Source: Fretibacterium sp. OH1220_COT-178 (GTDB lineage: Bacteria > Synergistota > Synergistia > Synergistales > Aminobacteriaceae). From it: a stretch of 41,346 nucleotides of DNA. Positions 4,624 to 8,943 of this stretch are shown in pieces; position 1 is the first letter of the stretch, and each line of letters starts with the position of its first letter. Where the stretch lies: positions 1 to 41,346 of the forward strand of contig NZ_RQYL01000027.1 of the NCBI RefSeq assembly GCF_003860125.1. The letters run 5' to 3'. Position numbers and translations under genes: made by a program. Below the pieces are notes generated by a model, which was not told the DNA's origin, did no database searches, and saw only the letters and a program-made list of their open reading frames with translations.

Positions 4624-4788
4624 CAGGGCGTCAACGTCACTCCAAACGGGCGCTGCTTTTGCCGGCCTTCCCCATCCGAGACACAAATGCATCCTTCGTC
4701 ATGCCGGCACGGGAGGACGCCTCCTCGACCGAAAGAAGGCCATCGCGCACAAGGGAGAAAAGAAGCTCGACCTGGCCTTCCCGCCGCC

Positions 4789-4857
4789 CCTCGGCTCTGC
4801 CCTCGGCCTTACCCTCGGCTCTGCCCTCGGCCCTGCCCTCGGCCCTGCCCTCGGCCA
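4789..4857. repeat. 12-bp tandem repeats coding an AEGR tail
   Basis: Five to six degenerate copies of a 12-base unit (ccctcggccctg and variants) encode Ala-Glu-Gly-Arg repeats in the tail of the Rpn pseudogene. The unit resembles, but is not identical to, those in the other two Rpn genes. Confidence 0.85.
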
Positions 4858-5364
4858 TAGCGGTACGGCGGATGGTCTCATCCATCGTCATCGCATCCCG
4901 CATCGCCTTATAGCTCATAAGGTAATTCAAGCGCTCCTCGCGGCTCTGCAAAAACAGTTTCTCCAAATCCAAAGCCTGACCAATCATCGGGTCCCTCGAC
5001 ATCGGCTCCGGCATCTTCCTCGCCTCCATTCCTGCCAGATACAAAAGCCAATACTCCAAGCGGCTGCGCGGGGGCCTACTCTTAGCGAACTTCGAAACCT
5101 CAAGGTAGACCAGCATCAAATCGTCGCACAGCTTCTCGCCCGTCTCCTCATCGCACAGACAGAACGCGCGGCGGAAACGATCTCCCTCAAACAGGCCGAA
5201 CGCAAGAATATGAACCGAGATCGTACGCTTCAGCTCCAGGTACGATTGCCCCGAATTCATCTGGGAGGCATGCAGCGCACTGAGATAATATGCTGAACGT
5301 TGGGGGTATAAGCAGACAACCGCCTTCCACGAGGCGACAGCCCCGTGAGGCGCGTTGGTCGCTT

Positions 5365-5401
5365 ACGTCGAAACGAAGCCCCGTGGCTTCGGCTTCGACG
5401 T
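5365..5401. repeat. Hairpin (inverted repeat) inside the broken Rpn gene
   Basis: The arms 5365-5380 and 5385-5401 are reverse complements apart from one extra or changed base, around the loop ccgt. The hairpin sits where the active-site codons should be. It may be a small palindromic insertion or the scar of one. Confidence 0.7.
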
Positions 5402-5738
5402 GAATAGTGACATCAATAACAGATGTCCAGATAGCAATCCTTGCCATCCGACCGCGTGGCGGAGAGCTCGCGGCTGGCGTACTCGAAACCGGTGAAGCCC
5501 GGACCACCGTCGGGGAACACGAGCGCGTTGACAAGATCCAAAAACAGGTGCTTGCGATCCTCTCGACCGAACAGGAACTTGAAGAAACGGTCGTTGAGAC
5601 GGTAGATCCGCCCTTCGTCCAGCGCCGCCTCCAGCTGTTCGTCCGTAAGAGATGCCAGCGTCGGATAAAGCACGTCCCCCTTCGCGTCCCAGTCCATAGC
5701 ACAACCTCCTGTTCACCGACCTTCTTCGGCACCCATTC

Positions 5739-6378: not shown

Positions 6379-6861
6379 TCAGGCCCCGCCCCACGCGGCG
6401 AGGAGCTTGCGGTAGGTCGCGTCCAGGCACTCCGGCACCACCCGGGTGTCGGCCAGGACGGGCATGAAGTTGTTATCCCCGCTCCAGCGCGGGACGACGT
6501 GCCGGTGCAGGTGCCCCTCCACCCCCGCCCCCGCCGGGTGCCCCAGGTTGATGCCGATGTTGAAGCCGTCGGGGCCCATCTCGCGCTTGAGCACCGCCAC
6601 CGCGCGCGCCGTGAGCCGGTGCATCTCCATGGCCTCGGGGTCGGTCAGCGACTCGTAGACGTTGGTGTGACGGTAGGGCACCACCATCAGGTGCCCGGGG
6701 TTGTAGGGGTAGAGGTTCAGGATCACGAAGCAGGACTCCCCGCGGTGGAGGATGTACCGCTCCCCGTCCCGGTTCTCCGCGGGAAAGTCGCAGAAGATGC
6801 AGCCCCGGTGCTTGGGGGCCGCGATGTAGGCCATGCGCCACGTGGCGAAAAGGTGTTCCAT
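6379..6861 (-). CDS. HIT-family nucleotide hydrolase/phosphorylase
   Basis: This encodes 160 residues. The histidine triad is HLHRHVVPRW, with His117, His119 and His121. An N-terminal CIFC (Cys21, Cys24) is the zinc-type pair common in bacterial HIT proteins of the Ap4A-phosphorylase-like branch. The segments FVILNLYPYNPGHLMVVPYR and NIGINLGHPAGAGVEGHLH are characteristic. Such enzymes cleave dinucleoside polyphosphates or nucleoside phosphoramidates; the substrate here is unknown. The ATG at 6861 follows GAGGA at a normal distance. The gene lies between an Rpn gene upstream and yigZ downstream, all on the minus strand. Confidence 0.92.
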   Translation of the reverse strand: MEHLFATWRMAYIAAPKHRGCIFCDFPAENRDGERYILHRGESCFVILNLYPYNPGHLMVVPYRHTNVYESLTDPEAMEMHRLTARAVAVLKREMGPDGFNIGINLGHPAGAGVEGHLHRHVVPRWSGDNNFMPVLADTRVVPECLDATYRKLLAAWGGA

Positions 6862-6945
6862 AAGGATGGTCCTCGTTTCCTCAAGAATTTTGCGCCGGGC
6901 GTCCCGCCGAGGGGGACGGCCCCCTCAGGGAGGTGCAAGCCGCTC

Positions 6946-7305
6946 TCAGCGGTGCTCGTCCGTATCGGCCCCGCACGGAAGCTCCTCCCGGGGGAGCCCC
7001 GTCAGCTCCGCGACCCGCTCCGCCGCCATGCCGGAGGCGAGGAGCCTTTCCGCCAGACGCCGCCGCTCCTCGGCTATGCCTTTGGCCACACCCTCGGCCA
7101 TTCCCTCGGCCATGCCCTTCGCCACGCCCTCGGCCATACCTTTGGCCATACCTTTGGCCATACCCCTCGCCATACCCTTGGCCATGGCCCGGTCCGTCGC
7201 CTCCGCCAGCCTCGTCTCCTGGATCGCCTTGATATCCAGCTGCGTCATCAGTTCCCGCAGCTGATAATAACGGTTCTCCGGTTCGCTCCAGAACTGCTGT
7301 TCCAC
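6946..7305 (-). other. Candidate internal translation start giving the Rpn C-terminal domain alone
   Basis: Within the intact Rpn gene an in-frame GTG (7305-7303) is preceded by GGAGGTGA (7318-7311) with a 5-base spacer. This is a far better ribosome site than the annotated start has. It would make a 119-residue product holding the linker, the repeat tail and the C-terminal helix but not the nuclease. Rpn genes of E. coli are known to make a small protein from an internal start that blocks the toxic full-length protein. That the same happens here is inference. Confidence 0.45.
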
Positions 7306-8019
7306 CTCGCTCACCTCCGAAAAAACGGAATCCGCAGCCAGGCTTTCCCCCATCAGGGCCAGCCCGTCCGACTCGTTGTTGATGTAACCGCCCCAGACCA
7401 GAGCCCGCTCCTCCGGGGTCATGACGTAGCCGGGGTTTTTCTTGAGCTTTTGACGCAGCGCCTTGAGGGGGCGGGCGAATTTCTCCAGCTCCACATAGAT
7501 CAGCAGCAGATCGTCGCTCTTCATCAGGCGGCGGCCCGTCGCCGGGTTGATCAGAGCGAAATCCCACAGGCCGCGTTCGTCGCCGCCGAAAAGTTCGAAG
7601 CCCAGCAATGAAATGGAGACGACGGGCGTCAACTTGCCGTAGCCCTCCCTGACGTTGAGACGCCGCGTGTAGTTCCGGCAGAGGTAGTAAAGGCAGCGTT
7701 TCTCGAAGTGGGTGTAGGCGTCGCGCTGCATCTCGATGTGGAGGCTGCGGCCGAGGTCGTCCGTCGCCGTCAGGTCCAGGCGCGCGTATTTGGCGCCCCT
7801 GACCTCGGGCTCCCGCTCCGTATCCGCAAGTGTGACCGTCCGCAAAAGAGGGTATTCCAAGGCGCCGAATATGGAATTGATCAGGTCCCGCAGCAAGCCC
7901 ATGCGCGCGGGCGTGCCGAGCAGGAAACGAAAATAAAGGTCCGTGGAGCGGTCGATAACGTCGGGAAGGTCGCCCTGCTCCCGGAGCCGCTCCATATCCT
8001 CGCGCTCGGCAGAGGTCAA
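6946..8019 (-). CDS. Rpn-family PD-(D/E)XK nuclease / putative transposase (intact)
   Basis: This encodes 357 residues from TTG 8019, and it is the only complete Rpn gene in the window. The nuclease core is at about residues 20-150: DVIDRSTDLYFRFLLG, then YARLDLTA with Asp82, then SLHIEMQ with Glu96 and Gln98. A middle helical region leads to an Ala-Lys/Glu-Gly-Met repeat tail (about residues 275-320) and a short C-terminal helix with LTGLPREEL. The start is uncertain: TTG 8019 has no clear ribosome site, ATG 7995 lies downstream, and the frame stays open upstream with family-like residues. The family promotes recombination and includes phage-defence nucleases. A strong internal start is described separately. 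Confidence 0.9.
   Translation of the reverse strand: MTSAEREDMERLREQGDLPDVIDRSTDLYFRFLLGTPARMGLLRDLINSIFGALEYPLLRTVTLADTEREPEVRGAKYARLDLTATDDLGRSLHIEMQRDAYTHFEKRCLYYLCRNYTRRLNVREGYGKLTPVVSISLLGFELFGGDERGLWDFALINPATGRRLMKSDDLLLIYVELEKFARPLKALRQKLKKNPGYVMTPEERALVWGGYINNESDGLALMGESLAADSVFSEVSEVEQQFWSEPENRYYQLRELMTQLDIKAIQETRLAEATDRAMAKGMARGMAKGMAKGMAEGVAKGMAEGMAEGVAKGIAEERRRLAERLLASGMAAERVAELTGLPREELPCGADTDEHR
7077..7193. repeat. 12-bp tandem repeats coding an AKGM/AEGM tail
   Basis: About ten degenerate 12-base units (tttggccatacc and variants) encode Ala-Lys-Gly-Met, Ala-Glu-Gly-Met and Ala-Glu-Gly-Val. The unit is codon-aligned, so length changes keep the frame. Confidence 0.85.
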
Positions 8020-8298
8020 ACGCGGCTTTGGATCGTCCGAAAATCTTCCTCCAATATCCGTACCCCCACACCTCCCCGTACCGGCCCGACTTTGAAAAGA
8101 GCCCCGTTATGGTTATTATATCAGCGGAGACCCCGGCTTCGGGCCCCGGAAAATCGGGCCGGGGCACCGCATGGCCCTCGGGGCGAAAGCACGGGGCTCT
8201 TTCGTCCTCGTTCCGATCATCCTCCCTATATTTTTAAGGAAGGAAGCGGAATGCGGGCGACGGGCAGACGGACTTTTTCGGGGAGGAGCGATTGTGCA

Positions 8299-8943
8299 AT
8301 GCTGCTTAAGGAGGAGCGCGAGGCGGTCGTCGCGTACGGCCGGAGGCTCGTGACGCATCGGCTGACGCGGGGGACGGGGGGAAACGTCAGCGTGTTCTGC
8401 CGCGCGAAGGGGCTCTTCGCCATCAGCCCCTCGGGGATGGACTACTTCGAGACGGAAAGCGCGGACGTGGTGGTCATGGACCTGGAGGGGCGCGTGGCGG
8501 AGGGCTCGCGGCGGCCCTCCAGCGAGTCGGACATGCACCGCCTGCTCTACCGGGAACGGGAGGACGTCGGGGCGGTGGTCCACACGCACTCCCCCTACGC
8601 GACCGTGCTGGCCTGCCTGCACCGCGAGCTGCCGCCCGTCCACTATCTGATCGGCTTCGCCGGCCGCAGCGTGCGCTGCACGCCCTACGCCCCCTTCGGG
8701 ACCCCCGAGCTGGCCCGGCTGGCCTGCGACGGGATGAGGGACCGCTACGCGGTGCTGCTGGGCAACCACGGGCTGCTGGCCGCGGGCCCCACCCCGGCCT
8801 ACGCCTTCGACACGGCCGAGGAGATCGAGTTCGTCTGCGAGGTCTACTGCCGCTCCCTGGCCGTCGGGACGCCCGTGCCGCTGTTGGACCGGGACATGGA
8901 CGTCGCCCTGGAGAAGTTCAAGACCTACGGACAGCGGGGATGA
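8299..8943 (+). CDS. Class II aldolase/adducin family protein, L-fuculose-phosphate-aldolase-like
   Basis: This encodes 214 residues from ATG 8299, the usual family length. GTGGNVSVF near residue 25 is the phosphate-binding stretch. The zinc ligands match fuculose-1-phosphate aldolase: Glu76 in SSESDMH, His95 and His97 in VVHTHSP, and His157 in LLGNHGLL. The enzyme would cleave or epimerise a sugar phosphate using zinc. L-ribulose-5-phosphate epimerase or a methionine-salvage dehydratase are other members, and no neighbour fixes the substrate. An in-frame ATG at 8251 with AAGGAAGG upstream is an alternative start; the family alignment favours 8299. The gene stands alone between the divergent Rpn gene and the ECF operon. 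Confidence 0.9.
   Translation: MLLKEEREAVVAYGRRLVTHRLTRGTGGNVSVFCRAKGLFAISPSGMDYFETESADVVVMDLEGRVAEGSRRPSSESDMHRLLYREREDVGAVVHTHSPYATVLACLHRELPPVHYLIGFAGRSVRCTPYAPFGTPELARLACDGMRDRYAVLLGNHGLLAAGPTPAYAFDTAEEIEFVCEVYCRSLAVGTPVPLLDRDMDVALEKFKTYGQRG

Follow-up and report, generated by a model that had tools for sequence, protein, structure and literature searches.

The window analysed here, a stretch of 41,346 nucleotides from Fretibacterium sp. OH1220_COT-178, carries on its minus strand, at 6946..8019, an rpn gene which, when read from a TTG codon, encodes 357 amino acids: a PD-(D/E)XK nuclease of the Rpn family (PF12784, TIGR01784) followed by a repeat tail. The protein scores 94.5 bits against PF12784 (curated cut-off 27.4, E=1.1e-26) and 86.9 bits against TIGR01784 (curated cut-off 52.1, E=2e-24), which bears out an earlier note on this DNA that had read the gene as an Rpn nuclease. 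The nuclease domain, delimited by the profile match and the alignment, covers residues 25-191 (7447..7947, minus strand). Residues D82, E96 and Q98 do not vary across an eight-sequence alignment with distant relatives and correspond to the acidic residues of the PD-(D/E)XK core. Judged by profile and catalytic residues, the predicted protein is an Rpn/PDDEXK_2 nuclease. The two family models (Rpn family recombination-promoting nuclease / putative transposase) cover the long protein only and are silent on an internal start.

The tail is marked by ten four-residue repeats of the types AMAK, GMAR, GMAK, GMAE, GVAK and GIAE, which were read from the translation at residues 278-317 (7069..7188, minus strand). 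The short domain that follows the repeats matches E. coli RpnA-S (PDB 7TH0) with 37% identity over 27 amino acids (E 9e-4), and the tail also matches positions 187-270 of TIGR01784. The AlphaFold model, whose confidence is modest (mean pLDDT 66) and which served solely for a rough domain boundary, has the nuclease core ending near residue 194 and a single long helix at residues 246-328; therefore, a product starting at residue 239 would begin just before this helix. A search of the PDB with the window protein gave no match and the sole PADLOC match was to a coiled tail model. Matches of the repeat tail to FliH were judged to be compositional and were set aside.

The beginning of the full-length gene is unusual. 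The earlier note had stated that the gene's own start has no ribosome site, and this holds for TTG 8019 (-0.1 kcal/mol); the statement is nevertheless misleading, because a GGAGGTG Shine-Dalgarno sequence of -14.8 kcal/mol (8069..8075, minus strand) stands 7 nt before an in-frame ACG codon (8059..8061, minus strand), which lies 14 codons upstream of the TTG and is likely the ancestral start position. An ATG is found at the offset of ACG 8061 in the relatives L014 and L010, a GTG stands one codon further in the paralogue L002, and a Shine-Dalgarno sequence lies ahead of each of these three full-length starts. The ACG behind a near-ideal Shine-Dalgarno sequence could be a real weak start, a sign of decay or a one-base assembly error. 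Further upstream, a putative extended -10-like promoter element, TGATATAAT, was read from the sequence at 8115..8123 (minus strand), and its equivalent place is taken by TGCTATAAT in L014 and by TGCTATACT in L002. A scan for sigma-70-like promoters on the strand of the gene gave none in 6700-8350, though scans of that kind miss many promoters.

A strong ribosome-site motif also lies inside the gene. The earlier note had described GGAGGTGA followed after five bases by an in-frame GTG within the Rpn gene, and we find precisely this on the minus strand: GGAGGTGAGCGAGGTG at 7318-7303 consists of the internal Shine-Dalgarno sequence GGAGGTGA (7311..7318; assigned from the sequence, a motif scan and the pairing energy), a spacer and the GTG codon (7303..7305), which is codon 239 of the TTG-started gene and a candidate internal start by its frame, its pairing energy and synonymous recoding. 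The GTG opens a frame of 119 residues (6946..7305, minus strand), the candidate RpnS-like product. The size of about 13 kDa that had been proposed for such a product agrees with this frame, and so does the proposed composition of repeat tail and C-terminal domain, as a frame that begins at residue 239 lacks the nuclease domain. The site and its frame are established by computation.

Pairing with the 16S tail amounts to -13.8 kcal/mol for GTG 7305, the top value among all in-frame ATG, GTG and TTG codons of the gene, and the genome of the window has the standard 16S tail with the anti-Shine-Dalgarno sequence GGATCACCTCCTT. When the protein was held fixed, an internal linker start as strong as this one arose in 0.2-0.4% of synonymous recodings of the window gene; a wider region together with a looser score raises this chance to 4.7%. 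The pattern GGAGGTGA-N5-RTG is matched once in the whole window against 0.08 expected in shuffles. Across the 2.86-Mb genome the looser pattern GGAGGTGA-N3-8-RTG occurs 51 times against 4 for the reversed control, and many of the 51 copies are gene starts, while about ten lie in frame within other long frames and about 12 lie out of frame. Given the many genuine starts and the ten or so other in-frame internal copies, the motif in one gene alone is moderate evidence only, and rarity of the motif was dropped as a sole argument. The GAGGTG core moreover encodes a conserved Glu-Val pair, so that part of the motif may exist for protein reasons. The case for an internal start is carried by the family data and not by the motif of this single gene.

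For the family-wide test we scored each in-frame ATG, GTG and TTG by its Shine-Dalgarno energy and set the best score of the C-terminal region against those obtained when the synonymous codons of that gene were shuffled. As a control of the scanner, its top matches in E. coli rpnA, rpnB, rpnC and rpnE fell at codons 241-244, and the top match in rpnA was M244, the start that was mutated in PMC10327210 and that is residue 1 of PDB 7TH0. A first set of 40 Rpn genes, non-redundant at 60% identity, was enriched in strong internal starts in the C-terminal region (Fisher p 3e-10), with no excess in the N-terminal regions of these genes (p 0.32) or in 146 unrelated ORFs (p 0.34). The enrichment was repeated in a held-out set of 43 genes with less than 60% identity to the first set, taken from 60 further regions and from search loci (p 2e-9 for the C-terminal and 0.53 for the N-terminal region).

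The combined set comprised 74 non-redundant Rpn genes from the family of the window and from its order. Of these, 64 have a start of -8 kcal/mol or lower in the linker, against 26.9 expected from synonymous shuffles; at or below -10 kcal/mol the count was 38 (10.9 expected) and at or below -12 kcal/mol it was 19 (4.5 expected). Two control segments of the same 74 genes contained starts of the linker type at expectation. A plain motif definition gave a comparable picture (62 against 27.8 expected in frame 0 only), and the excess was absent from the other two frames and from two other gene segments. These sequence statistics show selection, across the bacterial family to which the window belongs, for a start within the linker that joins nuclease and tail. 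The proposal of an intragenic antitoxin-type start is supported at the level of the family, where a linker start is selected, and is not supported as regards the exact GGAGGTGA-GTG site, which is not conserved.

The position of the linker starts is not uniform. In window numbering they peak at alignment column 223 (26 against 11.8 expected) and at column 254 (21 against 4.2 expected), and at column 223 leucine is written as TTG in 7 of 10 cases versus 17% across these genes (p 3e-4). The two columns exclude each other: 33 of the 74 genes have a start at 223, 22 have one at 254 and none has both, an exclusivity that was noticed post hoc and may partly reflect subfamily structure. A start in between is found in 9 of the 19 genes that have neither peak site (3.3 expected), the window gene with its site at 239 among them, as against 1 of the 55 genes that have one (3.8 expected; Fisher 7e-6). 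Counted over all 74 genes, in-between starts number 10 against 7.1 expected at -8 and 5 against 1.4 expected at or below -12. In five of the remaining genes a strong start lies near residue 273, beside the repeats. The window gene retains an ATG at codon 223 (7351..7353, minus strand), in the column that serves as the predicted internal start of its subfamily relatives, and the Shine-Dalgarno sequence before it is weak: -6.2 kcal/mol, compared with about -9 to -15 in those relatives. The simplest reading is that the internal start of the window gene would have shifted from 223 to 239.

In the nearest relatives the column of GTG 239 differs: it reads GCG in L002, the closest paralogue of the window gene, GCT in L009, ACA in L010, ACG in L011, GCA in L012 and GCG in L013. 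The Glu-Val codons beneath the Shine-Dalgarno sequence are mostly kept in these relatives and the GTG is not; the copies in the genome G020 keep the GTG and have a weak Shine-Dalgarno sequence. We therefore rejected the idea that GGAGGTGA-GTG is conserved at this exact place. The earlier note had named this conservation in orthologues as a check on its proposal and its loss as grounds for refutation, and at the level of the site the result goes against it. The internal start of the relatives sits either 16 codons before GTG 239 or about 15 codons after it, so that an equivalent predicted start is conserved at another linker position. Close orthologues of the window gene were absent from the 83 genomes of the family, and a search of the genome contigs returned distant relatives only. 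L014, whose N-terminus is the most similar to that of the window gene (70% identity over 76 residues from the start), was unusable as an informant on the site, as a scaffold gap covers its linker.

Two further rpn copies lie in the window on the same strand as the gene discussed here, and both have an internal start at column 223. The copy at 4637-5697 is split between frames, and its C-terminal part keeps ATG 5014 behind gaatggaggcgaggaag (-9.7 kcal/mol). In the copy at 1-755 the contig end cuts the repeat tail, and the internal start is ATG 200 behind taggaggggatgaggag (-10.7 kcal/mol). Freestanding tails are found in other genomes of the family. On contig 68 of G022 the tail-only copy L064 matches the full-length gene at 95% identity, starting exactly at GGAGGTAACGCGAAATTG, and is preceded by unrelated sequence; on contig 79 of G014 the tail-only copy L062 lies directly downstream of its parent and is 86% identical to it, the similarity starting about 5 nt ahead of AAGGAGGCGTACAAAGTG. 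In each case the breakpoint falls at the predicted internal Shine-Dalgarno sequence, and although these genomes are draft assemblies in which chimerism is possible, the two independent cases agree. That tail copies begin at the Shine-Dalgarno sequence is, like the selection for one linker start, established by the computation itself. A third tail-only frame, L069 in G006, belongs to the subfamily of the window gene and has a GTG at column 223 (-12.4) with TATAAT upstream. As a separate observation, some genomes of the family (G004, G022, G006, G014 and G029) gave 16 to 30 matches to the query, many of them tail-only, which suggests that rpn genes or their tails have expanded locally; some of the matches are contig-end fragments.

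The closest known system is that of E. coli, where the rpn genes, like one rpn gene of C. difficile, make a separate tail from an internal start (PMC10327210). The earlier note had stated that E. coli Rpn genes make an inhibitor of a toxic nuclease, and in this respect it agrees with the literature, in which E. coli RpnS is an antitoxin (PMC10327210, Zhong et al. 2023). Like E. coli RpnL/RpnS, the window gene combines a PD-(D/E)XK nuclease of the Rpn type with four-residue repeats in a C-terminal tail, and it has an in-frame Shine-Dalgarno sequence and start at the boundary of nuclease and tail; the freestanding tail genes of the family have a counterpart in E. coli ypaA. In known RpnS proteins the repeats begin 8-20 residues after the internal start (PMC10327210), whereas in the window gene they begin 39 residues after it (GTG 239 to A278), and in most subfamily relatives about 51-55. 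The window gene also has GTG and not ATG at its candidate internal site, its full-length start reads ACG, and no internal promoter was seen in it, while in E. coli a transcription start lies within the rpn genes (PMC10327210). The C. difficile gene, which also comes from outside the enterobacteria, makes RpnS in E. coli in dependence on the internal ribosome site (PMC10327210).

We consider it probable, with a probability of roughly 0.6, that the window gene encodes an Rpn toxin and, within it, an antitoxin of the RpnS type produced from a shifted start, GTG 7305; this would make it a variant of the RpnL/RpnS arrangement already known. The full frame (RpnL) would encode a DNA nuclease whose tail forms a repeat helix, and ribosomes that enter a second time, at GGAGGTGA-GTG 7305, would yield the tail alone, an RpnS-like protein of 119 amino acids. 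Through its repeat helix this protein should form a dimer with the tail of the full-length nuclease and so block the enzyme. During evolution the internal start would have moved 16 codons downstream: ATG 223 was kept while its Shine-Dalgarno sequence weakened, and GTG 239 gained one. We infer that GTG 7305 itself is used, that its product binds and inhibits the nuclease, and that the pair may have an anti-phage role.

One could argue that the ATG at the conserved column, ATG 7353, is the real start of a 135-residue product and that GTG 7305 is coincidental or secondary, since subfamily relatives with a detectable site use column 223 and the window gene has retained the codon. However, its Shine-Dalgarno sequence is weak, the local fold around it is somewhat more stable than that around GTG 7305 (-23.3 versus -20.0 kcal/mol) and genes without a peak site tend toward an in-between start, which makes this assignment unlikely. 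The doubt about GTG 7305 can be taken further: the motif may have arisen by chance from the conserved Glu-Val and a nearby Val, in which case the window gene would make no short product. The lack of conservation of the exact site, the similar in-frame motifs in other genes of the genome and the near-expected number of in-between sites at -8 would all fit such a coincidence. We nevertheless regard it as improbable in view of the low synonymous probability of the site under the stricter score, the excess of in-between sites at the stringent threshold and the strong family-wide excess in the same linker.

A different question, and one that is compatible with the production of a tail from GTG 7305, is whether the full-length gene is decaying via its ACG codon, with hardly any nuclease produced, if any, and the internal start serving chiefly to supply a freestanding antitoxin. 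The ACG stands where relatives have ATG or GTG, the neighbouring rpn copy is already frame-split and has kept its internal start, and relatives contain freestanding tail copies. On the other hand, the rest of the frame, 357 codons long, is uninterrupted, resembles coding sequence and keeps the catalytic residues, TTG 8019 could act as a weak start, and the ACG itself may be an assembly error of one base. Decay thus appears possible, though rather doubtful. Likewise tentative is a broader view in which nearly every Rpn gene of the family has one antitoxin start that slides along the linker, from residue 223 to about residue 273, and in which the tail can split off as a freestanding unit beginning at its Shine-Dalgarno sequence. 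The window gene would then have moved this start and weakened the start of the toxin (ACG), tilting the balance towards the antitoxin.

Published evidence for Rpn antitoxins encoded within their own toxin genes comes from E. coli and one C. difficile gene, and a wider conservation has been suggested (PMC10327210). Here sequence statistics, repeated on held-out genes, show selection for a linker start in most Rpn genes of another family, at linker positions that give longer tails than the published ones. The test by synonymous shuffling is a simple way to find genes within genes without ribosome profiling. For the organisms concerned these findings predict that many genes annotated as single 'putative transposases' would give rise to a second protein, and the exact sites from which it would start are supplied.
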